Below are positions 5,862-57,100 of a stretch of DNA of 64,000 nucleotides, in pieces. The position numbers were made by a program, and so were the translations under genes. Below the pieces are notes generated by a model that saw only the letters and a program-made list of their open reading frames with translations, was not told the DNA's origin and did not search any database. The DNA comes from Miltoncostaea oceani. GTDB taxonomy: Bacteria; Actinomycetota; Thermoleophilia; Miltoncostaeales; Miltoncostaeaceae. The stretch spans positions 682,001-746,000 of the forward strand of contig NZ_CP064357.1 in assembly GCF_018141545.1 (NCBI RefSeq), given 5' to 3'. The first letter of the stretch is position 1. Every line of letters begins with the position of its first letter.

Positions 5862-6896
5862 TCACCCGGCATCGGCCGGAGCGTCGCGCCGGACGAGAGC
5901 GACCTCGACCGTGCCGAGCTCTCCACCGGACGAGATGTCGAGCTCCACCCGGTCTCCGGGCTGGTAGGCAGAAAGCAGGGAGAGCAGCTCGGCGATGCCG
6001 CGCACCGGCAGATCGTCGATCCCGCGGATGACGTCATTCACCCCGGCCTTGCCCGCCAGGGGACTGCCGGCATCAAAGCCGGTGATCACCACGCCGCCGG
6101 CGCCGCCGGGCGCCTCGGCAACCTGGATCCCGAGCCCGGGTCGCTCCACCTGACCACCATCGAGCCAGATCCGGAGGTTGCGCTCGACCAGGTCCGAGGG
6201 AACCGCAAAGGCGACCCCGACGTTGGCCGAGTTGCCGGCGTCGGCGATCTGGGTTGCGACCCCAACCACCCGGCCCTCGGCGTCGAGCAGCGGCCCGCCC
6301 GAGTTGCCGGGGTTCACCGCCGCGTCGGTCTGGATCGTGTTGGAGATCAGCAGACCGTCCGGGGCGACGATCTGCCGGTTCAGCGCCGAGACGATGCCGG
6401 TCGAGGCGCTCAGCTCGAGACCGAACGGGGCCCCGATCACCAGGATGGGCTGCCCCGGCGAGAGATCCGTCGCTGAGCCGAGCGAGAGCGCAGGCGGGAG
6501 GGTGCCCTGATTCACCTTGAGCAGAGCGAGATCGGCGGAGACGTCGACGCCGACGACAGTCGCCACCCGCGGCTCGCGATCCGAGGGGAAGGAGACCATC
6601 ACCGAGCGCGCGTCCGAGACGACGTGCTCGTTGGTCAGGATGCGATCGCCCTCGACCACGAACCCGGAGCCGCTCCCCGCCTGCCCGTCGGCCCCCACGG
6701 ACTCGATGAAGGCGATCGACCCGGCGGCCTCCTGATAGAGCGTCTGAGGATCGAAGGCTGGCCGCGGGACGGTCTCACCGCGCAGGTCTGACGGCCCGAT
6801 AACCACCATGCAGAGGGTCGCCACGCAGACGGTGAGCGCCGCGAAGACGCCGGTGATCACCAGTGCGACGGGGAAGCTCGGATGGCGGGGGCGCAT
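5862..6896 (-). CDS. Membrane-anchored HtrA/DegP-like serine protease with PDZ domain
   Basis: 344 residues: one N-terminal membrane segment (about 10-34), a trypsin-like protease domain (55-240) and a C-terminal PDZ domain (about 250-340). The catalytic triad is complete: His91 (LTNEHVV), Asp122 (DVSADLALLK) and Ser199 (NPGNSGGPL). It should act outside the membrane, degrading or processing misfolded exported proteins. The length is normal for single-PDZ actinobacterial HtrA proteins. It is divergent from the gene at 6996. Confidence 0.92.
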   Translation of the reverse strand: MRPRHPSFPVALVITGVFAALTVCVATLCMVVIGPSDLRGETVPRPAFDPQTLYQEAAGSIAFIESVGADGQAGSGSGFVVEGDRILTNEHVVSDARSVMVSFPSDREPRVATVVGVDVSADLALLKVNQGTLPPALSLGSATDLSPGQPILVIGAPFGLELSASTGIVSALNRQIVAPDGLLISNTIQTDAAVNPGNSGGPLLDAEGRVVGVATQIADAGNSANVGVAFAVPSDLVERNLRIWLDGGQVERPGLGIQVAEAPGGAGGVVITGFDAGSPLAGKAGVNDVIRGIDDLPVRGIAELLSLLSAYQPGDRVELDISSGGELGTVEVALVRRDAPADAG

Positions 6897-6979
6897 CCGC
6901 CGATTGATGTCAGCCGGCTCGCCACATCACCGCGCTTTCGCTTTGGCCGAGTTCCGAGCATCCACGGGCTCGCCAGGCC

Positions 6980-6985
6980 TAGCCT
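6980..6985 (+). promoter_or_regulatory. Leaderless -10 box (TAGCCT)
   Basis: Ten bases before ATG 6996. Confidence 0.5.
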
Positions 6986-6995
6986 GGCCTGTGAG

Positions 6996-7481
6996 ATGGA
7001 CGCTGAGCACTTCGACTTCGCCCAAGCCTTCGGCGAGAAACCCGCGGTGGCGCCGACAGGGGTCCCTCCGGCGATCTGGCGACTCCTGATGTACGAGGAT
7101 CGCGGGCACCGGGCGAAGGAGGCGGTCGGGCTCTGGGAGCAGGACGACGAGCTCTGGTTCGTCTGCGCACTCCCGCTTCCCGCCCTGCGCGGCCTGAGCG
7201 GACCGCTGCTGATCTCACCGGTGGCGAACGCCCCTCAGATCACCCTCAGCCTCACCGGCCCGAGCGAATCGGCCGGGCTCCACGTGGTCTACGACCTCCG
7301 CCAGGCCTCGGCCTACGGGGTCTGGGAGCGCCTCCTGGAGCAGGATGTGCTCCACGGCGCCTGGGTGGACACGCTCGAGGGGCGCGTGATCGCTCGCCGG
7401 CTACTCGGCCTGCGAACGGTCAAGCCCCTGATCACGGACGCCTTGCAGCACGCGCTGATCTCGGCGCCGCTCAGCCCCTGA
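6996..7481 (+). CDS. Hypothetical protein
   Basis: 161 residues beginning MDAEHFDFAQ. ATG 6996 is preferred over an upstream in-frame ATG at 6882 because of the TAGCCT box and because the extension lies in the promoter of the divergent htrA-like gene. It is soluble, with no recognised motif. Its stop directly abuts the stop of the convergent HAD gene. Confidence 0.65.
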   Translation: MDAEHFDFAQAFGEKPAVAPTGVPPAIWRLLMYEDRGHRAKEAVGLWEQDDELWFVCALPLPALRGLSGPLLISPVANAPQITLSLTGPSESAGLHVVYDLRQASAYGVWERLLEQDVLHGAWVDTLEGRVIARRLLGLRTVKPLITDALQHALISAPLSP

Positions 7482-8123
7482 TCAGATCGTCGGGGCGGAG
7501 AGCGGTGAAGCCGGCCCGAGAAGGGTCTTCAGGCGCTCGGTGAAGTCCGGCGTCCAGGTCTCGGTGTGCTCGATGCCGAGGCGGTCGATCACCTCGGCGT
7601 TGTAGGGCCAGCGGAGAGTGAGGACCCTGATCCCGCCGGCGTGGGCCTGCTCGATCGTCTCCGGCTTGTCGTCCACCAGGACGTCGATGCCCTCCTTGAC
7701 GCACTCGGCGATCTTGTCGTAGAAGCCGCAGCGGACCTCGTGGACCGGAGCCCTGAACTCGGCGAGGAACTCACAGACGTGGTCGATCACGTCATCGGGA
7801 CGCGCGGTCATCACCACGATGTGGTAGCCCGCCGCCTCGAGTTCAGCCAGGGCGAGCTCGACGCCCGCCAGCAGGCCGTGCGGGCGCATTCCCTCGATGA
7901 CGAAGCAGCGCCGGAACCATCGCATGACCTGCTCCGGCGTTCCGAGAGAATCGATCCCACCCCACTCGGCCGAGATGATCGCAAGGAGCTCGTCCTCATC
8001 ACGACCGAGTTCCGCGGCCGCCTCCCGGGCTGTCGCCCTGCTGAGGTCCCACAGAGTCGAGTCGAAGTCGAGGGCGATCGCCCGCTGTCCAGGCACGCGC
8101 GCCTTCAGGACCGTCGTTCTCAT
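7482..8123 (-). CDS. HAD-superfamily phosphatase (5'-nucleotidase-like)
   Basis: 213 residues. HAD motif I is LDFDST (Asp19 nucleophile, Asp21), motif II lies in VVMTARPDD, and motifs III/IV in DKIAECVKEGIDVLVDDKPE. This pattern fits small HAD phosphatases such as 5'(3')-deoxyribonucleotidases. It is soluble and probably dephosphorylates a nucleotide or similar metabolite; the substrate is not decidable. A CAGTCT box lies six bases upstream of its ATG. Confidence 0.8.
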   Translation of the reverse strand: MRTTVLKARVPGQRAIALDFDSTLWDLSRATAREAAAELGRDEDELLAIISAEWGGIDSLGTPEQVMRWFRRCFVIEGMRPHGLLAGVELALAELEAAGYHIVVMTARPDDVIDHVCEFLAEFRAPVHEVRCGFYDKIAECVKEGIDVLVDDKPETIEQAHAGGIRVLTLRWPYNAEVIDRLGIEHTETWTPDFTERLKTLLGPASPLSAPTI

Positions 8124-8129
8124 ACCGTG

Positions 8130-8135
8130 AGACTG
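8130..8135 (-). promoter_or_regulatory. -10 box variant (CAGTCT)
   Basis: Six bases before the HAD gene ATG at 8123 on the minus strand. Confidence 0.4.
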
Positions 8136-8221
8136 ACAGGGGACCGGTGCGAGTACGCCGAGTTCTCACCTTCATCCGCGAGCGGCGCGGAGTCTTGACC
8201 GTCCGATCCATCCGGGGCGCT

Positions 8222-8227
8222 TACATT
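8222..8227 (+). promoter_or_regulatory. Leaderless -10 box (TACATT)
   Basis: Six bases before the RNase Z ATG at 8234; it excludes the longer in-frame start at 8147. Confidence 0.6.
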
Positions 8228-8233
8228 GGATCC

Positions 8234-9145
8234 ATGGATCTCAGCGTCTGCTTTCTCGGTACCGGTGCCACCTCTCCGACCCGCACGCGCGGGCTGACCT
8301 CCTGCCTGGTCATGCGCGGCTCGGACCGCGTGCTGGTGGACTGCGGAGAAGGAACCCAGCGGGCGCTGCTGCTGGCCGAGGTCAGCCAGGCGATGATCCC
8401 ATTGGTCCTCCTCACCCACGGCCACTCGGATCACTACATGGGCCTGCCGGGGCTGCTGAAGGGTTGGAGCGCCCAGGGCCGCCGGGATCCGCTCGAGATC
8501 TACGGCCCTCCCGGTACCTGGCAGCTGGTGCGGGCGATGACCGGCTTCATCGGTCCCCTGCGCTACGACCTGGAGATCCGCGAGATCACCCGCGGGGAGG
8601 CGATCCTGCGCGACGGCTACCGGATCGATCCGGTAGCCACCCACCACCGGATCTCAAGCCTCGGCTGGGCCTTCGTCGAGGATGGGCGCCCTGGGCGCTT
8701 CGACGCCGAGCGGGCGCGTGCCCTCGGTGTGGCCGAGGGCCCCGAACTCGGTCGGCTGGCGCGCGGGGAGACGCTCACGCTCGCCGGTGGAGCCGAGATC
8801 GACGGAGCCGATCTGATCGGTCCCCCGCGGCCCGGGCGCCGCGTCGTCGTCTCCGGCGACACCACGCCCTGCGAGACCCTCGAGCGGGCCGCCACGGGGG
8901 CGGACCTGCTGGTGATGGAGGCCACCTTCCTCGAGGCGGATGCGGCGCTGGCCGACAAGGCTGCGCACAGCACGGCCCTCCAGGCCGGCGCCCTCGCCCG
9001 GCGGGCCGGCGTGCGCTCACTCGCGCTCACTCACATCTCCTCGCGCTACGAGACGATCGAGGTCCTCTCAGAGGCACGCCGCGAGTTCCCCGAGGCGATC
9101 ATCCCGGATGACTATGACCGCATCAGCGTCACCCACCGCGACTGA
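8234..9145 (+). CDS. rnz: Ribonuclease Z
   Basis: 303 residues of metallo-beta-lactamase fold, the length of bacterial short RNase Z. It should cut the 3' trailer from tRNA precursors. Metal ligands are in LLTHGHSDHYMGLPGLL (His62, His64, Asp66, His67), with further family motifs VATHHRISSLGWAF, VVSGDTTPC and LTHISSRY near the C-terminus. The usual HLHGDH is replaced by HGHSDH, which keeps the ligand positions. Start ATG 8234 is set by a leaderless -10 box. Confidence 0.92.
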   Translation: MDLSVCFLGTGATSPTRTRGLTSCLVMRGSDRVLVDCGEGTQRALLLAEVSQAMIPLVLLTHGHSDHYMGLPGLLKGWSAQGRRDPLEIYGPPGTWQLVRAMTGFIGPLRYDLEIREITRGEAILRDGYRIDPVATHHRISSLGWAFVEDGRPGRFDAERARALGVAEGPELGRLARGETLTLAGGAEIDGADLIGPPRPGRRVVVSGDTTPCETLERAATGADLLVMEATFLEADAALADKAAHSTALQAGALARRAGVRSLALTHISSRYETIEVLSEARREFPEAIIPDDYDRISVTHRD

Positions 9146-9196
9146 AGGCGGAGAAAGCCGGCGTTGGGGCGTCCTGCTCCTGGATGATCGCCACCT

Positions 9197-9703
9197 ATGA
9201 GACTCGACATCGACTACGGCGGGACCCGACCGGTCGCCTGGGGAGCATTGTCACAGCGTGATCTGAAGCAGTTCATCTCGGACTTCGAGACGCCAGGAGC
9301 CCCGGCGGGTTACACGACGGTGCTGAGCTGGATGTGCATCGAGGGCAACCCGATCCTGCGCAGCTTCGGCGAGACCCTGTGCGTTCGGCGGGCCGTGGCG
9401 TCCCCGCCGAAGGCACAGGTCCGGGCGTCGTTGACCCCGATCGGCAACGGCGGCGTCAACCTCATCTGTGAGGTTACGATCGAAGCCCTCCGGGTGCTGG
9501 AGAAGGGGGCGGAGTCCATGGCCTCGGATTCGGACGGCGGTCCCGTGGAGTTCCGCATGCCCCCGGCGCTCCTGGGCGGCATGGGGGCGGGTGGCTGGAG
9601 CGTCGGCATCAAGGTCGAGCGCGATGACTTCCACGCGCTCTGCGGAACCCACGGCCCGGTCTGGACCGCGGCTCACACCGCGGCTCTCGGCGAGCGCGAA
9701 TAG
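9197..9703 (+). CDS. Hypothetical protein
   Basis: 168 residues, no membrane segment or recognised motif. Its stop codon is followed immediately by the ATG of the DsbA-like gene, so the two are very probably co-transcribed and translationally coupled. Confidence 0.65.
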   Translation: MRLDIDYGGTRPVAWGALSQRDLKQFISDFETPGAPAGYTTVLSWMCIEGNPILRSFGETLCVRRAVASPPKAQVRASLTPIGNGGVNLICEVTIEALRVLEKGAESMASDSDGGPVEFRMPPALLGGMGAGGWSVGIKVERDDFHALCGTHGPVWTAAHTAALGERE

Positions 9704-10366
9704 ATGCGTCGTCGCCTCATCATCATCGGCCTCAGCTTCCTCGGCGCGCTCCTGCTGATGATCGGCCTCGCGCGCATCGGAGGCGGGGAGAGCGGTCCGG
9801 CGATCGGCCCCGCGCTCACCGTACTCGACGGGGTGCCCCAGGCGGGAACGGTGCTCGGCGGCGATTCGACGCTCCAGATCACCGAGTACATCGATCTGCT
9901 CTGCGACCCGTGCGCGCTCCAGAGCGAGACCGTGATCCCCGACCTGATCCGCGAGCGGGTCGCCCGGGGTGACGTGGCCGTGGAGCGGCTCGTGCTCGCG
10001 CGAAGCGGTCAGGAGTCCCGTGCGCTCGCCCTCGCCTCCTACGCCGCCGGAGAGCAGGGTCGGCTCTGGCACTTCACCGAGGCTTGGCTGGCGGCCCGGC
10101 GCGCCGGCACCGCCGAGGTCAGCGTGCCCGGGATCTATGCCATCGCCGAGCTGTCAGGGCTCGACCTCGAACGCTTCGCTGCCGACCTCGCCCGGGGCCA
10201 GGAGCGGCTGAACGACCTCGCGTCGGCGGATCAGAGGGCTGCGGCTGACAAGATCACCCTCACACCGGCTTTCGTCGTTCGCGGCCAGGGTGGCGAGGTC
10301 GTGCTGAACGGCATCCAGGACACCGCAGCGATCGACAGGGCGATCGCCGAGGTGGCCGGGCCCTAG
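9704..10366 (+). CDS. DsbA-like thioredoxin-fold exported oxidoreductase
   Basis: 220 residues with an N-terminal membrane anchor (about 5-22) and a DsbA-type thioredoxin fold. The active site is CDPC (Cys67-Cys70) after ITEYIDLL, and the cis-proline region is probably TLTPAFVV near residue 190. It would oxidise or isomerise disulfides in exported proteins. Its start abuts the stop of the preceding unknown gene. Confidence 0.85.
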   Translation: MRRRLIIIGLSFLGALLLMIGLARIGGGESGPAIGPALTVLDGVPQAGTVLGGDSTLQITEYIDLLCDPCALQSETVIPDLIRERVARGDVAVERLVLARSGQESRALALASYAAGEQGRLWHFTEAWLAARRAGTAEVSVPGIYAIAELSGLDLERFAADLARGQERLNDLASADQRAAADKITLTPAFVVRGQGGEVVLNGIQDTAAIDRAIAEVAGP

Positions 10367-10421
10367 CCGTCACTATCAAGATGCCGGCAGCTGCGAGGGG
10401 GCCGCTGCCATCATCGCCCGC

Positions 10422-10619
10422 ATGTCCCGCACCCTGCTCAACGCATCCTTCCTGATCGGCCTCGGCGGCCTCATCCTCGGCGCGATCGTCGGCCTCCCGG
10501 GCGTCATCCTTCTCGCGTTCGTCGCGGTGGCGGTCGTCTCCCTGGCCCTCACCTTCGTCCAGCTGCGGCGCGACGGCCGGCTCGGCAACGAGATCGAGCG
10601 TCTCGGCGACGGGGACTGA
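10422..10619 (+). CDS. Small two-pass membrane protein
   Basis: 65 residues with two closely spaced hydrophobic segments (about 6-25 and 27-46) and a charged C-terminal tail. No family was recognised. It sits 55 bases after the DsbA-like gene. Confidence 0.55.
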   Translation: MSRTLLNASFLIGLGGLILGAIVGLPGVILLAFVAVAVVSLALTFVQLRRDGRLGNEIERLGDGD

Positions 10620-10673
10620 CATGACGGGCACCTGGACAGCGGGGACTCCTCACCTCGCGGCGGTCAGCTGAGC

Positions 10674-11120
10674 ATGCCCGCGGGCCGGTTCGCGGAGAAG
10701 ACCAGCGTGACGAGCGACCGCTCGAGGTCTGAGATCGAGAGGACTCTTCGCCGCTACGGGGCGAGCGGGTTCGCCTACTCGTGGGAGGAAGCCGGCGCGC
10801 GGATCATGTTCCGGATCGGCGATCGGACCATCCGCTTCACGATGGACCTGCCCCAGATCGAGGAGTTCGGGCACACCCCGACAGGGAAGGTCCGCGCGCC
10901 AGCGGTCGCCCGCGTCGCGCTCGAGCAGGCCGAGCGTCAGCGGTGGCGGGCGCTGGCACTGGTGATCAAGGCCAAGCTCGAGGCGGTCACCAGCGGCATC
11001 ACCACGATCGAGGATGAGTTCCTGGCCTGGACGGTCCTCTCCGACGGCTCGACCGTCTCGGAGCGCATCCAGGGACAGCTCGAGAGCGGGGGCGCACTCC
11101 AGCTGGGTTCGGGGCTCTAG
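10674..11120 (+). CDS. Conserved hypothetical protein of phage/plasmid type
   Basis: 148 residues. The N-terminal layout (a short basic lead, SRSEIERTLRRYGASGFAY, then beta-strand pairs RIMFRIGDRTIRFTMDLP) resembles small uncharacterised proteins common in phages and plasmids; this is from memory of the pattern and no function is known to me. It is soluble. Confidence 0.6.
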   Translation: MPAGRFAEKTSVTSDRSRSEIERTLRRYGASGFAYSWEEAGARIMFRIGDRTIRFTMDLPQIEEFGHTPTGKVRAPAVARVALEQAERQRWRALALVIKAKLEAVTSGITTIEDEFLAWTVLSDGSTVSERIQGQLESGGALQLGSGL

Positions 11121-14519: not shown

Positions 14520-14599
14520 CATGTTACGGACCGATGAGCGCCCGAACCACCGATGTCAGTGGGAGTGGCGAGAAGCGGGAAGCAGCGGAGGTCCGCTGT

Positions 14600-14605
14600 T
14601 AGCGT
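14600..14605 (+). promoter_or_regulatory. Leaderless -10 box (TAGCGT)
   Basis: Seven bases before ATG 14613; it favours this start over ATG 14553. Confidence 0.55.
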
Positions 14606-14612
14606 CGCGCCC

Positions 14613-17600
14613 ATGATCTTCTGGCAGCGCGCATACAAGTACATCAGTGCGCGCCGTAAGGGATCGCGCGGGTATCTGTTCCTCTGCGCCCTGTTCGGCA
14701 CGGCTCTCGGTGGACTGATCGCTGTCAGTGCCGTCCTGATGCCGATCGTCTACGTCACCTCGGCAATCATCCGCGCGCCGGTGATGAGTCAGATCATCTC
14801 GTTCACCTGTGATGTGCCCCTGGCCGGTGCCCTGGTCGGCGATTCGACGTGCGATCTCGTCGATGCCGGTCAGCGGCTGGTGGACAAGTCCGAGGAGATC
14901 GGTCTGAACGCGACCATCCGCGCCTACTTCGACTGCGCCAACAACCCGCCCTCATACCGTGAAGCCGGGCTCTGCGACCCGAACGCCCTCGCCCAGCGCG
15001 AGGGCGGCGCGATCCCGCCCGACCGCGGCTGGCTGATCCCGATCTTCGTGGCCGCCGGCCAGGAGCACGACGTCCCTTGGCAGGTGGTCGCCGCGATCGC
15101 GGGCGCCCGCTCGAACTTCGGTGATGAGAACTGCTCGACCGGCGGCCGCAGCGGCGGCTTCATGAGCGTCACCCGCAAGGAGTGGGACCGCTTCGGCTAC
15201 GACGCCGGCTCCACCGACGTCTCGTTCTCCGGGGCCGGCGAGGGGTGCTGGGAGCTGAAGACGATCGAGGAGGTCAAGGAGGACGACGACAACGCCCGGA
15301 TCTCGAGCTACGAGCCGGACGGCATCGTCGACGCACGGGACCCGGTCGACGCCATCTTCAGCTACGCCGCCCTTCTGTCGGCCAACGGCGCCCGGGGTGC
15401 GAAGGAGTGGCGCTACAACGGCGACGCCGCGAACGGCTGCCCCGTGGACGAGTCGCTCGACGGCGAGATCTTCCCGGCGCCGATCGGCACCAGCACCACC
15501 GTCGGCGGCGGCTTCAACGGCACGGGCCCGGCGACCTACCCGGGCGATGAGGCGCCGATCGAGCAGCGCGCGGCGTGGATGGCCGCCAAGGCCGCCGCGG
15601 CCGGCTTCCCGCCTGAGCTCCCGGTGATGGCGGCCTTGGTCGAGACCGGTGGGCTGATCAAGAACATCGGCTACGGCCACGCCGACTCGGTCGGATTCTT
15701 CCAGATGCGGACGAGCATCTGGGACAGCGGTGCCTACGCCGGCTACCCCCAGAACCCCGAGCTCCAGATCCAGTGGTTCGTCGATCAGGCCAAGGCCGTC
15801 AAGGCGAAGCCCCAGTGGGTCAACGTGGACCTCGTCCCCTCCAATTACGGCGAGTTCATCGCCGACGTGGAGCGGCCCGCCGCCCAGTACCGAGGTCGCT
15901 ACCAGACCCAGCTCGCCCGGGCGCAGGAGCTGCTCGCCGGCGCCGGATCGACCCCGGTCGCCGGGCCTGGCGTCGATGGCGGGACGGCGCTGCCGGGGAC
16001 CTACTCGTTCCCGGTCAACGGCGCGAGCAACTACACCAACGACTGGGGCGCGGCACGCTCTGACGGCCGCGGTGGCCACAAGGGCACCGACATCTTCGCC
16101 GCCCGCGGGACGCCGGTGGTCGCCGTCACCGACGGTCGCCTGCGCCAGGTCGGCTCGAACACGCTCGGTGGCAAGCGCCTCTGGCTCGTCGGCCAGGGGA
16201 GCCTCGAGTTCTACTACGCCCACCTCGACAGCTTCGCCCCGATCTCAAAGGACGGGGCCCAGGTGAAGCGCGGCCAGATCCTCGGCTATGTCGGCAACAC
16301 CGGCAACGCCGTCTCGACCCCGCCCCACCTCCACTTCGAGGTCCACCCGACCGGCTACGACTCGGCGATCAACCCTTTCCCGCACCTCTCCAGCTGGGAG
16401 CAGGGGGCGGCCTCGGGCGGCTCGGGTGGGTCTGGCGGCTCGGGTGGCTCGATCTCCGTGCCGAGCACGCCGACCTCCGGCGGGTCGACGGTCTCGCCCG
16501 TGAGCGCCGCCTACCTGTCCAAGTACCTCGAGCGCAAGCGCGCCCAGTCGCCCCTGCTGCCCCACATCGACTTCATCGTCTCCGAGAGCCAGAAGGCCGG
16601 AGTCGACCCGAGGATGGTCCTGGCGATCGCCGGCGCCGAGAGCCAGTTCGCGACCGACTCCTCGAACGCCGCCTCGCTCAAGAACGCCTGGGGCCTGGGT
16701 CCCCATCGTCAGTACGAGACCTGGGAGGCCGGCATCCAGTCGCTCCTGCGGACCCTCGTGAACTACCGCAAGGACGGCCTCGACACCATCCCCGAGATCC
16801 AGGCGCGCTACTGCCCCGTGGGCGCCGCGAACGACCCGACCGGCCTGAACGGCAACTGGCTCGGCAACGTCACCGCGCTCTACACCGAGATGGGTGGCGA
16901 CCCGACCAAGCCCGTCCACACCGGCGGCGGAGATGACTACACCAGCCAGGCGGGGACGGGCGGCTCGGGGTCCACCCCGGCCTCCGGCGGCCCCTACAGC
17001 GGCCGCATGCCGACTGACAAGGTCTCAAAGGCGGTCCGGGTCCGTTACGGGGAGCAGGAGAAGCACACCGCCTGCTACGTGGCCTCGGTCCACCAGTGGT
17101 ACGACGCGATCCGCAACGGCGTCTCGGCGAGCTCCTCGACCGGGGGCAACGGCGGGCCGCTCCTCCAGCAGTTCATGTCGCTCGCGCGGGCCCAGATCGG
17201 CAAGCCCTACATCTGGGGCGCCGCCGGCGCCGAGAGCTTCGATTGCTCGGGGCTGCCCAGCTGGATCTTCGGCCAGATCGGAAAGCCCCTGCCCGCCGGC
17301 GGCCGCTGGATCACCTACACCTTCGATGACGCCGCCCAGACGCACCCGGGCGAGTGGGAGGAAGGCACTGACTGGTCCCAGATCCGCGAGGGCGACCTGG
17401 TGCTCTCCAACGGCGGCGGGCACATGGTGATCTACGCCGGCGACAACAAGTACCTCCACGCCTCCGGCGGTCAGGCCTGCCCCTCCTCGGGCATGCGATG
17501 CCGGGTCGTCCTGGACGACGGGTTCGATCAGTACAGCTCGCGGATCAAGTGGGTCCGCTACAAGCCCTTCTGGGAGGGGAATCAGAACGTCTCAGGCGGG

Positions 17601-18269
17601 GCGCAGCAGGTCGCCGCGGCCGACGAGGACACCGTCTGGGTCCAGGCCGGGCACAGCGCACCGCGCGAGCCGGGCTATGCGGCGCAGACCGGTGCTCCTG
17701 GTGAGGAGGCCTTCAACACCGCGGTCACCCAGAAGGTGATCTCCAAGCTCACAGCGCGCGGCATCGACGCCCGCCCGATGCAGGGCATGGTCGACCCGAT
17801 GAACGCACCAGGGCTCGCCTTCGTCAGCATCCACCATGACGTCGCCGACAGCTCCGGGCGAGGCTTCGCGGCCTACGCCCTCGCCGGCGCCTCTGAGAAC
17901 TACTACGCCGGCGACGGCGTCGGCACCGCCCGCGACACCCCGGTGCCGGGCGCCGTCCCCCACCGCACGCCCGCGACGACCGTCTCGCCGAGCGTCGAGG
18001 CCAACTCCCGAGCCCTCGCCCGCGAGGTCGACCGGCGCATGCGCGGGATCGGAGCCCCGGACTGGACGGGCCTCGGCAACAAGAACAAGGCCAACGACCG
18101 TCGCGCCATGCGCTACTACGGCTTCTACCGCACCCGGGCGGAGGCCCGCGTGCTGATTGAGGCCGGCCGCGGCGGCACCTCCTTCGTGACGGGCGCCCAG
18201 AGCCAGGACCGGATCGCCACCGCCGTCTCGAACGCCATCGCGACCTACGCCGAGTCCAAGCAGGACTGA
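14613..18269 (+). CDS. Giant multi-domain peptidoglycan hydrolase (VirB1-like)
   Basis: 1,218 residues. Order: N-terminal membrane segment (about 17-50); a lysozyme-like helix pair near 135-175; a transglycosylase-like region near 310-410 (MAALVETGG, VGFFQMR); an M23 LysM-type metallopeptidase (about 470-595; GHKGTDIFAARG and HLHFEVHP give the His/Asp/His-x-His ligands); a Gly/Ser linker; a glucosaminidase-like domain (about 650-770; AGAESQF, KNAWGLGP); an NlpC/P60 peptidase (about 845-985; FDCSGLPSW, GGHMVIY); and a C-terminal Amidase_3 domain (about 1005-1218; VQAGHSA, SIHHD, VLIEAGRGGT). Together these could cut glycan strands, stem peptides and the amide bond between them. It probably opens the wall for the secretion apparatus encoded around it. 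Signal anchoring implies action outside the membrane. Confidence 0.88.
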   Translation: MIFWQRAYKYISARRKGSRGYLFLCALFGTALGGLIAVSAVLMPIVYVTSAIIRAPVMSQIISFTCDVPLAGALVGDSTCDLVDAGQRLVDKSEEIGLNATIRAYFDCANNPPSYREAGLCDPNALAQREGGAIPPDRGWLIPIFVAAGQEHDVPWQVVAAIAGARSNFGDENCSTGGRSGGFMSVTRKEWDRFGYDAGSTDVSFSGAGEGCWELKTIEEVKEDDDNARISSYEPDGIVDARDPVDAIFSYAALLSANGARGAKEWRYNGDAANGCPVDESLDGEIFPAPIGTSTTVGGGFNGTGPATYPGDEAPIEQRAAWMAAKAAAAGFPPELPVMAALVETGGLIKNIGYGHADSVGFFQMRTSIWDSGAYAGYPQNPELQIQWFVDQAKAVKAKPQWVNVDLVPSNYGEFIADVERPAAQYRGRYQTQLARAQELLAGAGSTPVAGPGVDGGTALPGTYSFPVNGASNYTNDWGAARSDGRGGHKGTDIFAARGTPVVAVTDGRLRQVGSNTLGGKRLWLVGQGSLEFYYAHLDSFAPISKDGAQVKRGQILGYVGNTGNAVSTPPHLHFEVHPTGYDSAINPFPHLSSWEQGAASGGSGGSGGSGGSISVPSTPTSGGSTVSPVSAAYLSKYLERKRAQSPLLPHIDFIVSESQKAGVDPRMVLAIAGAESQFATDSSNAASLKNAWGLGPHRQYETWEAGIQSLLRTLVNYRKDGLDTIPEIQARYCPVGAANDPTGLNGNWLGNVTALYTEMGGDPTKPVHTGGGDDYTSQAGTGGSGSTPASGGPYSGRMPTDKVSKAVRVRYGEQEKHTACYVASVHQWYDAIRNGVSASSSTGGNGGPLLQQFMSLARAQIGKPYIWGAAGAESFDCSGLPSWIFGQIGKPLPAGGRWITYTFDDAAQTHPGEWEEGTDWSQIREGDLVLSNGGGHMVIYAGDNKYLHASGGQACPSSGMRCRVVLDDGFDQYSSRIKWVRYKPFWEGNQNVSGGAQQVAAADEDTVWVQAGHSAPREPGYAAQTGAPGEEAFNTAVTQKVISKLTARGIDARPMQGMVDPMNAPGLAFVSIHHDVADSSGRGFAAYALAGASENYYAGDGVGTARDTPVPGAVPHRTPATTVSPSVEANSRALAREVDRRMRGIGAPDWTGLGNKNKANDRRAMRYYGFYRTRAEARVLIEAGRGGTSFVTGAQSQDRIATAVSNAIATYAESKQD

Positions 18270-28509: not shown

Positions 28510-30666
28510 CTAGGCGGCGAGAGCTCCCGCCGCGCGCAGGATCAGCAGGGGCGCCTGGGCCCATTCGTCGCCGGCGCGGGGGGCGAGGAAGCCGATCTGG
28601 GCATCGCACCAGCCAAGCGACTCACTCGCCCTCTTGGTCGGCGCGCAGAGGATGAACTGCAGGCCCTGGGTGTCGGCCAGGCGCGCGAAGACCTCCCCGA
28701 GCTCCTGGGCCCGGTCCTCGTCGAGGCTGGCTGCGTGCTCGTCGATCATGACCAGGGGACAGCGCGACCGCTCGCCGGTGAGCGCCGACAGCAGCAGGAG
28801 CAGCCCGGTCTTCGCCCGCCATCCTCCGCTGAGCTCACCGTCCCGGAAGAAGCTCTTGAGCGGCCGGCCGGGGTGCTCACGCATCAGCAGGTCGATCCGC
28901 GAGCGGCCGGATTCGCTCGTCTCGACGACCAGACGACCCTCCATCCCCGCCGCCTCGCAGAGCAGGCCGAACCTCTCCCCCATCTCCTCGAGGATCCGCC
29001 CGCGCTCGGTCTCCCAGAGCGACGTCGCCTCATGGAGGACACCCAGGAGCCGCTCGACCGCGGCGTCGTGCTCACCGAGCAGCGACAGGGCCTCCTCGAG
29101 ACGGGCTTGCGCCCCGTCGTGCTCCCCGGCGCGCGCCCGGAGGACCTCGACCGAACCGACCGAGCCAAGGATCCGGTCCAGAGCGCGTGAGCGGGCCGAC
29201 TCGCAGGCCGACAGCTCGGCGCGGGCCTGCTCGAGTGAGACCTCCTCCACCGTTGAGGCCTCATCAGCATGCGGGGCCGGCCCGATCTCAGAGAGCTCGC
29301 GCTCGAGGGAGCGAAGGAGCGACCGGTCGGCCGCGGTCTGGGCCGCGAGCGTCGCCCGCAGGCGCTCCGCATCCCCCAGCTGGCCGACCAGATCCTCGCG
29401 CCGTGCCGCCGCGGCGTCGGGGAACCACTCGGCGCCCGACCAGACCCCGCCCTCCTCGCGGACCATCGGGCCGGCGAGACCCACGGAGGCCAGGTAGGCG
29501 TCGATGCCGGACCCTCCGCCGAGCGACGGAGTCAGGACGAGAGGGACGCCGTCCGGCAGATCCGGGTCCTCGCGCAGGGCGTCGAAGGCCGCGCGATCAT
29601 CGACAAGCAGCCCGTAGCGGCGGGGGCCGAGGAGCGCCTCGATGAGTTCACGCTCGGCCAGGTCCGCGGCCAGGCGCTCATCGAGGATGCTGACCCCGGT
29701 GTGCCGGGCGCAGACGCCGCGCAGGTGGTCCATCAGGCTCTCATCGCGCTCGGCCGGCGCGAGGGTCGGCGCCCCTCGGCGAAGACGCGCGCGGAGCTCG
29801 CTGACCGCCTCCTCTGAGTCCTGCAGCTGCTCCTCGGCCTCGGCGATCCGCTCCCGGAGCGCCTGCGCCTCGGTCTCGATCCTGACCCGGTGCTGGGCCC
29901 GGGCGCCGGCGAGCGTCCGCGCCGCGACGGCGACCTCTCCCTCGAGCTCGGTCAGCTCGTCGGCCATCTCACGTGCGCGCTCCAGGGAGGCGACGCGCCG
30001 CTGCTCGGCGATCGCCCCGTGGCGGACCTGCTCGCGCTCGCGCTTTGCGTCCTCGAGGCTCGCTCTGGCGAGGTCGAGCTCGTCGAGCCGGTCCTGATGG
30101 CCGAGCATCGCCAGCAGCTGGGCCAGCAGGTCGTCCTGCTTGGCTGCCATGACCCGGTGGGCCTCGCCCTGGGGCAGCTCGAACAGGCGGATCATCGAGG
30201 CGTCGACGCCCAGAGGCTCGAGGACCTCACGGCGCCACCGCTCAGGAGCCAGCCACCGCTCGCGCGGCTGGTCCGACAGGAACGCCGCCATGCTCTGTTC
30301 CAGGGGCGCCGTGAGGCCCACCGACCCCTCCAGCAGGCAGAACCGCCGGGAGCGTCGCGTTACCGACATGCAGAGCGTGCCGTGGTCGCTCCCGGCCCCG
30401 AGCAGCGGGGAGAGGCCGCTCGCCTCGAGGAGAATGAGGGCCGTTGCCGCCTCCCGGCCCTCGGGGGAGCGGTGGAGGTAGTGGGCGGGGGTCCGGCTCT
30501 GCCCGAAGCGCCGCGCCCCGAGGACGGCCTTGATCGCGTCCATCGCCGAGCTCTTGCCCGAGCCGTTCGCGCCGCAGAAGACGTTGATGCGCCCGTCCAC
30601 GCTGATCCGCGACGGGGACAGGTGCGACCAGTTGATCGCCTGCAGAGAGTGGATGCGAAGGCTCAT
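28510..30666 (-). CDS. Compact SMC-like ATPase
   Basis: 718 residues, much shorter than canonical SMC (about 1,150-1,200) or MukB/JetC. Walker A is GANGSGKSS (32-40) after a RecF/SMC-like beta start; two coiled-coil arms (about 215-300 and 440-560) flank a hinge-like centre (about 305-420, LLGPRRYGLLVDDRAAFDAL); the signature is LSGGWRAKTG (from 612) and Walker B is LVMIDEHAASLDED (Asp642, Glu643). It should dimerise and bind DNA in an ATP-dependent way. Its start overlaps the winged-helix-like gene by four bases, making a three-gene condensin-like unit. A RecN/SbcC-type role remains possible. Confidence 0.82.
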   Translation of the reverse strand: MSLRIHSLQAINWSHLSPSRISVDGRINVFCGANGSGKSSAMDAIKAVLGARRFGQSRTPAHYLHRSPEGREAATALILLEASGLSPLLGAGSDHGTLCMSVTRRSRRFCLLEGSVGLTAPLEQSMAAFLSDQPRERWLAPERWRREVLEPLGVDASMIRLFELPQGEAHRVMAAKQDDLLAQLLAMLGHQDRLDELDLARASLEDAKREREQVRHGAIAEQRRVASLERAREMADELTELEGEVAVAARTLAGARAQHRVRIETEAQALRERIAEAEEQLQDSEEAVSELRARLRRGAPTLAPAERDESLMDHLRGVCARHTGVSILDERLAADLAERELIEALLGPRRYGLLVDDRAAFDALREDPDLPDGVPLVLTPSLGGGSGIDAYLASVGLAGPMVREEGGVWSGAEWFPDAAAARREDLVGQLGDAERLRATLAAQTAADRSLLRSLERELSEIGPAPHADEASTVEEVSLEQARAELSACESARSRALDRILGSVGSVEVLRARAGEHDGAQARLEEALSLLGEHDAAVERLLGVLHEATSLWETERGRILEEMGERFGLLCEAAGMEGRLVVETSESGRSRIDLLMREHPGRPLKSFFRDGELSGGWRAKTGLLLLLSALTGERSRCPLVMIDEHAASLDEDRAQELGEVFARLADTQGLQFILCAPTKRASESLGWCDAQIGFLAPRAGDEWAQAPLLILRAAGALAA

Positions 30667-31211
30667 GAGGTGGCTCCGAGGGCGCGGGCGACAAGACGGG
30701 CGTCGATCAGCAGCAGACGCGGGCCGGCTTCGATGAACTCGGCCGAGCGCCGCTGCCCCGGAGCGGTGACCCGCAGGTAGCCGTCGCGCTCGAGCGGTCC
30801 GAGCACGGCGCGGCGAAGCCACTCCTTCGACCATCCCTGGCCGTCGGAGATCCGGCGGTGGAACTCGCTGACGCTGATGCGCGGCCGGGGGGTCTCCTGG
30901 CCGGGTACAGGAGCCACGACGAGCTCGACGCTCAGGAGGGCGAGGGCGGCGAGCTGGGGCTCGGAGTAGCCGCTCGCCCCGTCCTCGAGGTCGGCCGCCA
31001 CGGCGTAGTAGCGGTCGTCGACCAGCCCGAGCCGGAAGCCGACCGCATCGAGCAGCTCCTCGACCTCGCGGACAAGACCCGGGTCCCGCATGGCACTCCG
31101 GGGGACGGTCTCATCACAGAGCAGCCGCTGGGTCTGTGCCCGGGCCTCCGTTCCGCGGGCGGCGGAGTCCCAGCCCTCCTCATCGTGCTCGACAAGCTTC
31201 AGATCAACCAT
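30663..31211 (-). CDS. MksE/ScpB-like accessory subunit (winged helix)
   Basis: 182 residues from MVDLKLVEHDEEG. The C-terminal half (ISVSEFHRRISDGQGWSKEW, LGPLERDGYLRV) looks like tandem winged helices as in MksE, MukE or ScpB, which bind kleisin and DNA. It overlaps the kleisin-like gene by eight bases and the SMC gene by four. The family call rests on operon position and fold pattern more than on a signature. Confidence 0.6.
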   Translation of the reverse strand: MVDLKLVEHDEEGWDSAARGTEARAQTQRLLCDETVPRSAMRDPGLVREVEELLDAVGFRLGLVDDRYYAVAADLEDGASGYSEPQLAALALLSVELVVAPVPGQETPRPRISVSEFHRRISDGQGWSKEWLRRAVLGPLERDGYLRVTAPGQRRSAEFIEAGPRLLLIDARLVARALGATS

Positions 31212-32328
31212 GGACCGCGGCTTCCTTCCATGCGTCGACGCTCGCCCGGGAGGCGAGGCGCACTGCCGGCGAGGGGTCCACGAGGACACTCCCGTCGCTG
31301 CTGATGCCCGCCGCCTCGCGGCCGAGCAGTGTTTCGTGGAGACGCACGAACCCGTGCTGGAGCGACAGCGCGTCGCCCCAGTCCCCGCACTCTCCGATCA
31401 GGGATTCGAAGGAGACCTGCTCCCGGGCGCCGAGGTTCCGGTAGAGGCGCTCGAGCGAATCGGGCTGGGGCTCCGCGGCCTCGACCGCCTGGGTCACCTC
31501 GGGCTCCGGGAGGGCGCTGGGCCTGTCCCGATCCGAGAGGCGCAGCAGGGCGGCCGCGAGGGCCCGCGGGTCCGGCAGCTGGTGCATGCGGGGCGCCGGG
31601 CGCGCCCGGCCGCCGAGAAGCGAAGCCAGCTGTTCGAGTGAGAGGGAGCGCGCCTTGGCGCGCAGGTCGGCGGCCGAGGCGCCGCCGGCCCGGGGCATCC
31701 GGTCGGCCGACTCGCGGCTGAGGTTCTCGAGGACGCCGGAGACGCCGAGCGCGAGGCGCGAGACCAGCTCGACGGCCCGCTCGGTGTAGCGGCGGCCGTG
31801 ATCGTCGGTGCCGAGCCGCTCCAGAAGCCGCTCGGCATCGTCCACGTGGCGCTCGATCTGCCGAGCCGTCTCGAGGGCGTCCTCGATCTGCCCCTGCCCG
31901 ATCGCTTCGAGGGTGAGGACGTCCTCCTCCAGCAGGTCGATCAGCCCGGCGAGGGTCAGGTCCCCGTCGTCGCTGTCGGCGGCGATCCCGAAGAGGGCGC
32001 CCTGTAGCTCGACCAGCTCGGCAGCCGGCCGGGAGCCGGAGAGCAGGTAGAGGGCCGTCAGCACCGGGCGCTGATCGGCCGGGACCAGATAGCGGCTGCG
32101 CTGGGCGTCCCACTGGAGGGAACCCGTGCGCTTGAGGGAGACGAGCGCCCGCTGCGTACGAACGTCGTCCATCCGGGAGAGCTGGCGTATCTGGCCGGGG
32201 GACCAGCCGCCGCCGGGGGCGCCGAGCAGGTCGCGTAGCAGCGTCAGCCGCTCGTTGCGCTGCTCGTGGGGCCCCGAGAGGATCCTGGCGAGCGCCTCGA
32301 TCCCCGCGCCTGGTGACAGTTCCGACAC
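31204..32328 (-). CDS. Kleisin-like subunit (MksF/JetA-like)
   Basis: 374 residues, all helical. The N-terminal part (about 35-90, SPGQIRQLSRMDDVRTQRAL and LVSLKRTGSLQWDAQRSRY) looks like a winged helix; the middle is long helix (about 120-210), and the C-terminus is variable. Size, order and overlap with the next two genes match the first gene of MksF-MksE-MksB (Wadjet JetA-JetB-JetC) operons. The start is GTG. No nuclease gene of the JetD/MksG type was found next to it. Confidence 0.6.
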   Translation of the reverse strand: MSELSPGAGIEALARILSGPHEQRNERLTLLRDLLGAPGGGWSPGQIRQLSRMDDVRTQRALVSLKRTGSLQWDAQRSRYLVPADQRPVLTALYLLSGSRPAAELVELQGALFGIAADSDDGDLTLAGLIDLLEEDVLTLEAIGQGQIEDALETARQIERHVDDAERLLERLGTDDHGRRYTERAVELVSRLALGVSGVLENLSRESADRMPRAGGASAADLRAKARSLSLEQLASLLGGRARPAPRMHQLPDPRALAAALLRLSDRDRPSALPEPEVTQAVEAAEPQPDSLERLYRNLGAREQVSFESLIGECGDWGDALSLQHGFVRLHETLLGREAAGISSDGSVLVDPSPAVRLASRASVDAWKEAAVHG

Positions 32329-32383: not shown

Positions 32384-33202
32384 TCAGCGCAGGAGGTGGA
32401 TCTGCTCGGGGGAGATCTCGCTCGGGTCCAGGTCCGCGCCGGTCATCTTCGGGTCGTCGCCCGAGTAGAACAGACCGAAGGAGGGGCTCGAGAACGGGTT
32501 CAGGCAGACGTGGCCGTGGGAGACCCAGAGGCGCTCCCACGGGGCGCCGTGCTTCTGGACCGACAGCACCGACTCGATGATCTCGCGGATGAAGAACTGG
32601 TCCGCGCCGCGCGCCACGAGGCGCTGCCAGCATCCGCCGCGCACCAGCGCGCGCGCCAGGTCCGTCGACTCGACCAGGATGGTGCGCACCCGTCCCCGAC
32701 GGTCGCAGCACCGGTGGAGCTCGACGCCCCAGTCGCGGAGGGTCGGGCCGTCCACGCCGAGCCAGTCCATGACCTTGGCCAGCTCCCAGTGCCGGGCGGC
32801 CCGGCGCAGGCCGAGGCGACGGGCGCGGTAGGCGACGGCGGTCTCGGTGTGACCGACGAAGTGCGCGATCACCTCGATCTCGAGCCGGCCGAAGTGGCGG
32901 GTCAGGTAGTCGTCGTGGTCCGCGCTGAAGACCGTGGTCGCCGGGTCCTCCCGGAGAAGGCGCCGCCCCGGCTCCATCGCCTTGGCACGGGCCAGATCAC
33001 GCTCGGGACGGTCATCCCCCGCCGTGACATGCAGTCGACAGGCCAGGTTGTAGAGTTGCGGCACCGAGAGGATCCCCAGATCCGACGCAAGTGCCCGCTT
33101 GTCATCGATACCCCGGCAGTGCGGGTATCGGTCCCGGACCGCCTCGATCACATCGGGCGCGTACCGTGATCGGCTCGGAGCTGGACTGACAGTGTGAGGC
33201 GG
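32384..33202 (-). CDS. Hypothetical protein with HTH-like segments
   Basis: 272 residues from MPPHTVSPAP. Two segments look like DNA-binding helix-turn-helix or SANT-type motifs: LASDLGILSVPQLYNLACRL (about 45) and EIEVIAHFVGHTETAVAYRA (about 105). The rest is unrecognised. An upstream extension to 33586 was rejected as low-complexity. It sits upstream of the SMC operon but a terminator hairpin separates them. Confidence 0.55.
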   Translation of the reverse strand, partial: PPHTVSPAPSRSRYAPDVIEAVRDRYPHCRGIDDKRALASDLGILSVPQLYNLACRLHVTAGDDRPERDLARAKAMEPGRRLLREDPATTVFSADHDDYLTRHFGRLEIEVIAHFVGHTETAVAYRARRLGLRRAARHWELAKVMDWLGVDGPTLRDWGVELHRCCDRRGRVRTILVESTDLARALVRGGCWQRLVARGADQFFIREIIESVLSVQKHGAPWERLWVSHGHVCLNPFSSPSFGLFYSGDDPKMTGADLDPSEISPEQIHLLR

Positions 33203-33498
33203 CATTCTCTTCGCTTCCGTACAAGCCGGGGGCGCGGCGTTTGGCAGGGGCTGCTCCGGGGGACTGACCGGCGCGGTACCAATGAACGATGGGCCGGGCG
33301 AAAAGCCTGGATTAGCGGCTCTTTCGACGATGGGCAGCTGCTCTAGCCGAGATGCCGCTCCCCGACCGGGATCCGCCCCGCACGCGAGGCCGGGGATGAG
33401 TACCGGGCGCGGGGAATCGAGAGGTACAACCTCGCTCTGAGCGGCAAAAACGACGCAAGCGAGATCTGGAGATCGTCTCCGCGGCGCGTCCGATACTG
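33203..33498. other. Divergent intergenic region
   Basis: About 296 bases between divergent genes. It holds a short palindrome GATCTGGAGATC (about 33460-33471) and a GATACT box just before the gene at 33499, but no convincing reading frame. Confidence 0.45.
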
Positions 33499-33945
33499 AT
33501 GTCAGTGAGTGAGCACCCGGACATCCACGCCCAAGCCCTCGGTGTGCTGCAGGGATGGAAGCTCGGTGCGCGGCCGGCGCCCTCACAGGGGGCTGTCGCC
33601 TTCGCGCTCTGCGGCCCGGCGGCGGACGAGGTGGCGGAGCTGGTCAGCGGAGAGAAGGTGATCGCCCAGCTCGATTCGCTGACGCGCTCGATCTACTCCG
33701 AGGGCCTGCCCCGCCTTTCCTCGCCGGGTCTTCTCGACCTCGCCCTCGCCCAGCGGCTTCTCTCCGGATATGCGCTCGTGCTGAGCAACCGCGGCTTCGG
33801 CCAGGCGGTCATGGCTCCGGGCCTCCGGATGGAGGCGGCCGATGATGCGGCGGTACCGGGCCTCCAGGTGGCGCTCGCCATCGGGCCTGCTCAGCGTGGC
33901 GCAGCCCGCGCGAGCGCCTACGTCGTCGGAGAAGGAGCCGCCTGA
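33499..33945 (+). CDS. Hypothetical protein
   Basis: 148 residues, soluble, alpha/beta by composition. ATG 33499 or GTG 33505 may start it; the GATACT box would suit GTG 33505 (seven bases). It overlaps the next gene by one base, so the pair is co-translated. No recognised family. Confidence 0.55.
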   Translation: MSVSEHPDIHAQALGVLQGWKLGARPAPSQGAVAFALCGPAADEVAELVSGEKVIAQLDSLTRSIYSEGLPRLSSPGLLDLALAQRLLSGYALVLSNRGFGQAVMAPGLRMEAADDAAVPGLQVALAIGPAQRGAARASAYVVGEGAA

Positions 33946-54120: not shown

Positions 54121-57100
54121 ATGTCAGCGCACGAGCCGAAGACGCCCCCCGGCGCGGTGAGCGGCCTGGTCGGGCGTCGCGGTCCGGTGCGCGACGTCGA
54201 GGCCCAGGACGCCGCGCCGCTCCTCGACACGACCGAGAACGCCCCGCAGCGGCTGATCGACCCGAACCTCCTCACCGACGAGCTCGATGAGGCAGACCTC
54301 GAGGGTGCCCCGGCAGCGGCGGCGCAGTCCACCCGATCGCGTCCGAGCTCGGCACCGCCCGCGACCCAGGCCACCGCCGTCCCGCCTCCGGCCCCGGCCG
54401 CCCCTTCGCCGCCGCGGCCCTCCACGCCCCCTGCCGCGCCCGCACCCCCCGTCAGCTCCGGCGAGCCGGGCGGCAGCGAGCTGCGCCGGCGTCGTTCGCG
54501 CTCGGCACCGCCGGGGTCGGACGCCCAGGCGCCCGCACCTCCCCCCGCTCCCGTTCCGCCCAGTCCTGTTCCGCCGGCGGGTGATCCCTGGAGCGAGGTC
54601 GGCGACCAGTTCGACAGCGTCACCGGCGCCCGTGAGGCGATCACGCCCGAGGACGAGGGCGATCTCGGCTGGGCGCTCGGCGACGAGGAGGAGGCCCAGA
54701 CCGCAGAGGTCCCGGACGAGATCTCGGTGTCCGGCGTCTTCGACGACGAGTCATGGATCGACGCGCCGCCCGACCTCGCCTACCCGGCGCGGGCAGACGC
54801 AGCAGAGGCGGATCTTCCGGCGCGCAGTGCCGCGCAGCCGCCCGCGCGCGATCACGAGGAGTACTTCCCGGAGGAGGCCGGCCGCGAGTCGGATCCCCCG
54901 GGGTTCGCCCTCAGCGACTACCTCGCCCGCCTCGCCGCGGATGAGGACGAGGACCCCATCTCCGGGGCGCCTCCGATCATCAGCACCGAGCAGCCCTCGC
55001 CCCGCAAGCGTCGTGGAGAGGCCGTGGACGCACGGCCGCCCGCGCCGCCCGCCGGACGGGACATCTCCCCGCCGAGGGAGGACGCTGGCCCCTGGGCCGG
55101 GCAGGACCTCTCCGAGCCCGAGCCCGTCGACGGCCCCGGCTACCCCAGGGACGACTCCGCCGCCTCCGAGGGCGAGGAGCCGGCCGCCAAGAAGAGCCGC
55201 CGCCCGGGCAAGGGCGCCCGGGCCGCCGCCCTGCGCCGGGTCCGCGCGTCACGCCGCGGCGCCCAGCCGACGGCCGACGTCGACGCGTCCGACTTCTGGG
55301 ACGACACGCCCGGTGGTCCCGCCCCGCAGCCCGACGGGCCTGAAGAGCAGAGCATGGGCGTCGAGGGGCTCCGGGGTCTCGGCGGCCCTCCGGGCGACGG
55401 TGCCCAGGAGTCGAAGCTGGCGGTCTCCGCCTCACGGGGCGTGTTCGGCGGGCACCCCGCTCTCAGCCTGATCAGTCCGAACCTCACGCCCCACGAGGAC
55501 GAGCTCAACGACGCGCTGACCGCCTTCAGCCTTCTCGATCCGGGGATGGTCGGCTTCATCCGCGTGGACTTCCGGGCCTACCCGGAGTTCAAGGGCATCT
55601 CGCGGGCCTACGTCCAGGCGCTTCGCACCGGGCAGAACCCCGAGCCCCAGAAGAGCGGCGGCCGTCTGGTCTTCGGCTCGCTGATCTGGGTCCTGAAGAC
55701 GCTCAAGTACTACGCCAACCAGGACGGCTCCCGGGGCATGCCGCCCCCGCGCGCCCCTTGGATGCGCGCCCCGGTGGTCGTCCTGTCAGCGAAGGACATG
55801 ACCGATGAGACGCGCCAGGCGATCCGCGACGCCGAGCGCAAGTCGCAGGCGGTCTCCCACTACGAGACGATGCTCAGCATCGGCGTGGTCGGCCCCTCGA
55901 GTGAGAGGGCTGAGCTCGAGCGGATCCGGCTGAGCGTCGAGAGCGGCTTCGACGTCTACTCGACGCCGCACCAGCGTCTGGTCTGGGCGGAGCGCAACGG
56001 CCTCGACGCCCTGATCGGCTTCATGCCTCCCGACCAGGAGCGCCTGCTGGTGCTCGCCGCGGACGAGCTCGCCGAGCTCGCGCGGGTCCCCGACGCACTG
56101 ACACGTCCCCAGGGCGTGATCATCGATCGCGCGCGGATCAAGCCCCTGCCGCCGACCAACCCGGTGGTCATCAAGAACCCCCTCGATCCCGACGGCGGGA
56201 AGATCCCGCTGGGCGTCGTCAACCGCGGCACGGACGACGAAAAGGTCATCGGAATGCGCAATTCCGAGCTCGACCAGCACCTGTTCATGGCGGGCAGAAC
56301 GGGGACGGGCAAAAGTGTGGCAATTGATACAATGTGCCCGACGCGAGATGGATACAAGCAGATGGGAGACATCGAGGTCGGAGATTTCGTCTTCGATGAG
56401 AAGGGCCAGCAGTGCCGTGTCACCCACGCCTGGCCGATCAGGTATGACCGCCCGTGCTACGAGATCGTCTTCAACGACGGCACCACTATCGTCGCCGACG
56501 AGGACCACAACTGGCTGACCGAGACATGGGCGGCACGTAAGTCGGCCTCAGAGGCGAAAGGCCGGGACACGAGGTCCGCCGCCCCGGCGCCGGCCTGGCT
56601 CGCGGCGGTCGAAGCCCTCGACCCCGAGGGACCCCCGATGACCAAGGCCGAGGTCGACGCCCTCGGGGTAACGAAGAGCGCCATCCACCAGATGAAGTAC
56701 GCCGGCACGCTGACACCGTGCGGGAAGACCGACGTCGTCCTGACCCGCGTCTATGACGGGGTTGAGAAGATCTCCACGCGCAAGGCGGACGTCTACAGCC
56801 GCCCTGAGCTCATCGCCGCGCTCCGCGAGCGCGCCCTCGGCCCCGGCCGGGATCAGTCCCACAAGCGCGAGCGGGCCAGCGTCAAGACGACCAAGGAGAT
56901 CATCGAGACCCTGAACGCGACCTACGACGGCCGCCCCAACCACTCGATCGACCTCGCCGGCGCCGCGGACTACCCCGAGGCAGACTTGCCGATCGGGAGC
57001 TACACCCTCGGTGCCTTCCTCGGAGACGGGACGTCGCTTTGTTCGACCATGACGAGCATGGACCCCGAGGTCAGGGAGAACATCGCGGCAGAGGGACACC

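Follow-up and report, generated by a model that had tools for sequence, protein, structure and literature searches.

SMC complexes combine a hinge dimer, engaged ATPase heads, a bridging kleisin and a KITE subunit into a ring that uses ATP to move DNA, and in current loop extrusion models the length of the coiled-coil arms sets the reach of this motor. Wadjet/MksBEF operons carry their genes in the order kleisin, KITE, SMC, with an SMC longer than the one described here, and the defence versions additionally carry JetD/MksG. Pseudomonas aeruginosa MksBEF is a nuclease-free condensin.

We analysed a 64,000-nucleotide stretch of the Miltoncostaea oceani genome (C2:682001-746000), referred to as the window in its entirety, which contains a three-gene operon (genes A, B and C) that is unusual in being short, nuclease-free and located on a second replicon. 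It resembles MksBEF as a three-gene set, putatively kleisin/KITE/SMC, lacking a nuclease, but its SMC has only 718 residues, neither A nor B is significantly assigned to a family by Pfam, NCBIfam or PADLOC, and it is carried on a second replicon. The likeness to Wadjet (JetABCD/MksBEFG) lies in the gene order, if A and B are as they seem, in a weak profile match of C to JetC, and in the JetC chains, which have the highest query TM-scores (up to 0.37) among the Foldseek matches listed for the C model; in contrast to Wadjet, A-B-C has no JetD and far shorter arms, and no IFDR motif, one that contacts JetD in the JetB of type I (PMC10586767), is visible at the N-terminus of B. By the defining JetD nuclease, A-B-C is not a Wadjet system.

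Organisation of the operon

The three overlapping genes of the sequence-only reading are all present as open reading frames on the minus strand (Table 1). The longest frame of B begins at a GTG at 31289 (208 aa), whilst the ATG at 31211 is the start that matches the relatives in the alignment. Genes A and B share 8 bp, and the overlap at the junction of B with C is 4 bp long (ATGA); A-B-C is a coupled operon, and owing to these overlaps the three genes probably form one translation unit. Both A and C show gene-like G+C by codon position. A gene of unknown family lies 55 bases upstream of A (32384-33586, minus strand), with three paralogous stretches elsewhere on C2 (at 746945, 747976 and 812936) sharing 36–43% identity.

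Table 1 Features of the A-B-C operon (window positions).
Feature	Position	Strand	Details
Gene A, putative kleisin-like subunit	31204..32328	-	GTG start, 374 aa; ORF list and counterparts at the equivalent place in four loci
Gene B, candidate KITE/winged-helix-like subunit	30663..31211	-	182 aa from likely ATG start 31211
Gene C, compact SMC ATPase	28510..30666	-	718 aa from ATG overlapping the B stop
Walker A GANGSGKS	30550..30573	-	C residues 32-39
Q-loop LPQG	30166..30177	-	C residues 164-167; invariant across five aligned sequences
N-terminal coiled-coil arm (predicted)	29776..30138	-	C residues 177-297; AF2 secondary structure
Hinge-like alpha/beta domain (predicted)	29413..29760	-	C residues about 303-418; AF2, low confidence from 381; aligns with the centre of the relatives
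C-terminal coiled-coil arm (predicted)	28951..29412	-	C residues 419-572, break at 462-472; AF2 secondary structure
ABC signature LSGGWRA	28813..28833	-	C residues 612-618
Walker B and D-loop LVMIDEHAASLD	28720..28755	-	C residues 638-649

An SMC protein with short arms

Gene C is more than a chance frame, as evidenced by a Pfam SMC_N match (E 1.6e-14), the A-B-C order kept in four further loci and its codon-like G+C. Its earlier description as an SMC-like product of 718 residues with Walker A, an LSGG-type signature and Walker B was borne out by the same SMC_N match and by intact motifs; the hinge-like centre of that description is predicted. The ABC head is split, with its halves at the two ends of the protein and Walker A, signature and Walker B all present, as in the SMC superfamily. 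The AF2 models of A and C were built on three-sequence alignments and are of low confidence (mean pLDDT 51 and 59, respectively); in that of C, antiparallel arms flank an alpha/beta insert which falls partly below pLDDT 50. Both the modelled insert between the arms, at low confidence, and the lack of a CxxC motif speak against a Rad50/SbcC/RecN-type protein.

The profile of the C family matched SMC heads with E 1.9e-14 and, with E 6.1e-4, the MukB hinge entry 3ibp; the centre of the window protein alone gave no hhalign profile signal for a hinge. A CxxC zinc hook was absent from C and from three relatives, and the canonical SMC hinge glycine pattern was not found in C. From the profile of the family, together with a model of low confidence, the centre of C appears to be hinge-like and not a zinc hook.

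The best-scoring models for the SMC of this family are SMC heads, which, with the head motifs, it shares with Smc-ScpAB. The differences from Smc-ScpAB are that the host has a separate canonical SMC, that neither A nor B matches ScpA or ScpB in Pfam or NCBIfam, and that the hinge glycine pattern was not found in C. A copy of the host's own SMC was rejected as the origin of C (best blastp piece 32 residues, 5.6e-4). The head of C also matches RecF and Rad50 models, and Rad50 occupies the first Foldseek rows of the C model, with MukB, Smc5/6, condensin and JetC also listed. C has in common with Rad50/SbcC an ABC head with coiled coils, but differs in having neither the zinc hook nor a nuclease neighbour.

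Compared with its relatives, the head of C is about full size and the shortening is confined to arms and hinge, the arms being about 120–150 residues long in C versus about 210–230 in the relatives. As the relatives keep the A-B-C order with an SMC of ~955 aa, we regard C as an arm-shortened member of the MukBEF/MksBEF/JetABC-like family.

The partner proteins A and B

The earlier labels of the partners, kleisin-like and winged-helix-like, have weak sequence and fold support in the window proteins in both cases. Neither PADLOC nor Pfam significantly matched A, B or the relatives of either to the JetA and JetB families. The model of A begins with a helix-helix-helix-strand-strand arrangement (a winged-helix pattern), followed by long helices, its C-terminal half being unreliable. 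Its top Foldseek row is MukF (9gm7_C, E 0.011, prob 0.89, on this low-confidence model), and MukF recurs among the rows. VIA-align placed A against MukF with Z 10.1–10.4 over 110–116 residues, scores that designed helical proteins reach equally; against MukF 3rpu in particular Z was 10.4 over 115 residues, and Z of helical parts is unspecific. On the strength of the model, A is likely to be kleisin-like. A-B-C resembles MukBEF in the MukB hinge profile match of the C family and in this top fold match of A, but MukB is about twice the length of C and the similarity is weak.

Protein B gave scattered weak matches, several of which are winged-helix domains and none significant, and no significant match to a known KITE protein. 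These matches weakly suggest B as a winged-helix/KITE-like candidate.

Relatives of the operon

A phylum-wide search found relatives with a ~955-aa SMC in three genomes of one other actinobacterial family. An alignment-based scan of one genome per species (84,980 species) found two loci, one of them already known from the phylum search and labelled as an uncultured actinobacterium, the other in a Gemmatimonadetes MAG, where it lies on a short contig for which wrong binning is possible. Among 61 near genomes the host alone had a full-length match, the phylum sample of 198 had matches in the host and three others, and the MAG alone matched among 200 genomes of its phylum. The A-B-C family is rare. 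In all four intact relatives the genes follow the A-B-C order and either overlap at start and stop or are closely spaced, and identity with the window proteins is 28–30% (C), 22–27% (A) and 28–33% (B); A is shorter in the window than in relatives, and the arms and hinge of C are shorter than in all of them.

In the plasmid search the sole relative was a B-C fragment on Variovorax sp. WDL1 plasmid 2 (L009:7479-9479), in which the SMC is shortened beside an IS1071 transposase gene. No relative was found in the phage search or in single-protein scans of genome contigs and of viral contigs; an alignment scan of viral contigs returned Walker A look-alikes only, and scans of viral contigs with the kleisin, the long SMC and the fourth gene of the MAG (described below) returned none. 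Three relatives lie on contigs without any plasmid sign, so service to a second replicon may not be a family trait. Each of the three actinobacterial relatives (L019, L020 and L021) has a dynamin-like GTPase gene pair close to the operon, called by Pfam in L019 and by likeness of the protein starts in L020 and L021.

Nuclease genes

The claim that the operon has no nuclease partner stands: the two Pfam domains of JetD (PF11795 and PF09983) had no match in the whole host genome, with C. glutamicum as positive control, and no recognised nuclease lies beside the operon. PADLOC likewise found nothing significant for the Lamassu neighbours LmuA/LmuC, whether in A and B or in the upstream ORF of 400 aa. 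An adjacent JetD had been suggested as something to look for in relatives; there was no nuclease beside the operon in the three long-SMC actinobacterial relatives, where the neighbours of C are a TetR gene, what by eye looks like an MscS-type channel, or further genes unrelated to it, whilst the MAG has an overlapping fourth gene that is unrecognised. The absence of a nuclease is thus not special to the window copy, since these three relatives equally have none adjacent.

The fourth gene of the MAG (L023:7359-8177) overlaps the SMC stop by GTGA and runs off the contig end. It matches nothing in family or profile searches and has no homologue in the host genome; by eye, we would guess that it stops where a JetD Toprim domain could begin. 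A G172 match to it (E 0.04) was rejected, as it contains three stops and lies on a different contig from the operon.

The 816-kb replicon

The host genome comprises three contigs, and the window belongs to C2, which has 815,643 bases; C1 (3.68 Mb) has tRNAs of its own spread along it and a canonical SMC. C2 carries ~40 tRNAs, mostly clustered (351-363k, 489-502k and 671k), with a tmRNA and a tRNA-Sec, and no rRNA was found on it by motif. It codes for ParB, ParA, DnaE, GyrA, GyrB, a primase-helicase, LigA, ribonucleotide reductase and SecA, and the window itself for RecA, GrpE, DnaJ, thymidylate kinase and a TraG/VirB4-type ATPase. At window position 54121-59049 lies a coupling-type ATPase with an intein inserted in Walker A. 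Further C2 inteins occur in DnaE (6155-11119) and ribonucleotide reductase (323535-327497). The PHROG 'terminase' label of a 1642-aa window protein was rejected, the matches being attributed to the intein and the remainder reading, by eye, like a T4SS coupling ATPase. The protein of 1238 aa at window 14553-18269, which has an M23 peptidase and an NlpC/P60 domain, is probably a conjugation-linked wall hydrolase. The cumulative GC skew of C2 rises to about 420 kb and falls after, and circular closure of the contig was not seen.

We consider a conjugative megaplasmid or second chromosome the likeliest identity of C2, and a separate organism less likely because it is without rRNA. Apart from C, nothing on C2 matches SMC_N. 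No canonical parS occurs on C2 with up to three mismatches (0.45 expected), so the host SMC may not load there by its usual route. Eighteen C2 proteins start with M-x-RGRG or a near variant (e.g., at 315507, 401074, 436231, 469387, 516183, 517329, 524981 and 760493); RGRG occurs 43 times across all predicted C2 proteins and at the start of none of 41 sampled C1 and C3 genes, and the N-terminal motif is possibly a common tag or sorting signal.

Function of A-B-C

Our leading explanation, to which we give about an even chance, is that A-B-C, in the manner of MukBEF/MksBEF/JetABC, is an SMC-kleisin-KITE complex, here one without a nuclease, most likely folding and segregating the 816-kb replicon. 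Two C proteins would dimerise via the hinge and via ATP-sandwiching heads, A would bridge the heads and B would bind A, and through cycles of ATP the ring would hold DNA or reel it in; owing to its shorter arms this ring would be little more than half the length of those of the relatives. It would act on the replicon in parallel to the host's chromosomal SMC, and if A and B are as they seem the complex would work like an MksBEF-type condensin. We infer complex formation, loop extrusion and the replicon as substrate, the last from the location, the lack of a nuclease and the MksBEF precedent (PMC10586767).

The sequence-only reading had offered either a miniature condensin or a defence system minus its nuclease. 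The condensin half fits best, with a putatively hinge-bearing SMC, MukF-like and KITE-like candidates, no JetD and a second replicon; the defence half draws on the overlapping fourth gene of the MAG and is set back by the three long-SMC relatives, which are equally without an adjacent nuclease. On the defence reading A-B-C would be a Wadjet-like anti-plasmid sensor, detecting small circles and recruiting a nuclease encoded elsewhere or of an unrecognised type. The weak profile matches shared with JetC and the GTGA-linked MAG gene, cut by the contig end, are compatible with such a sensor, and a conjugative-looking replicon would suit competition between plasmids, but neither JetD_C nor DUF3322 is encoded in the host genome, the MAG gene lacks a homologue there and no nuclease adjoins the three relatives, leaving it rather unlikely. 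Were the operon instead a plasmid-encoded JetABC mimic that poisons a host's Wadjet through mixed assembly, its nuclease-free state and mobile-looking replicon would be as expected, but no JetD that it could block is recognisable in this host and C is only distant kin of JetC; we consider this very unlikely.

Two further explanations were considered. The shorter arms and hinge, and the shorter A, might indicate the decaying remnant of a longer system; this is very improbable, as the ATPase motifs are all intact, the three coupled frames are unbroken with codon-like composition, and the shrinkage spares the full-size heads. A Rad50/SbcC/RecN-type repair ATPase next to two unrelated genes is very improbable too: the Rad50 rows heading the Foldseek result and the reach of the head matches to RecF and Rad50 models are outweighed by the absence of a zinc hook and of a nuclease subunit beside C, the alpha/beta centre with a family profile similar to the MukB hinge, the likeness of A to MukF above all else, and the partners kept in order.

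Implications

If the condensin explanation is taken one step further, a half-length SMC complex would be the dedicated condensin of an 816-kb conjugative second replicon that brings its own replication genes, and long arms would not be needed for SMC function, a proposal that we put forward tentatively and hold to be doubtful. A-B-C, whose arms reach slightly more than half the length seen in its own family, would make it possible to test directly how the arms affect step size, hinge and obstacle bypass. As a replicon-borne, nuclease-free member, it also bears on whether MksBEF-like condensins came from defence systems or vice versa.
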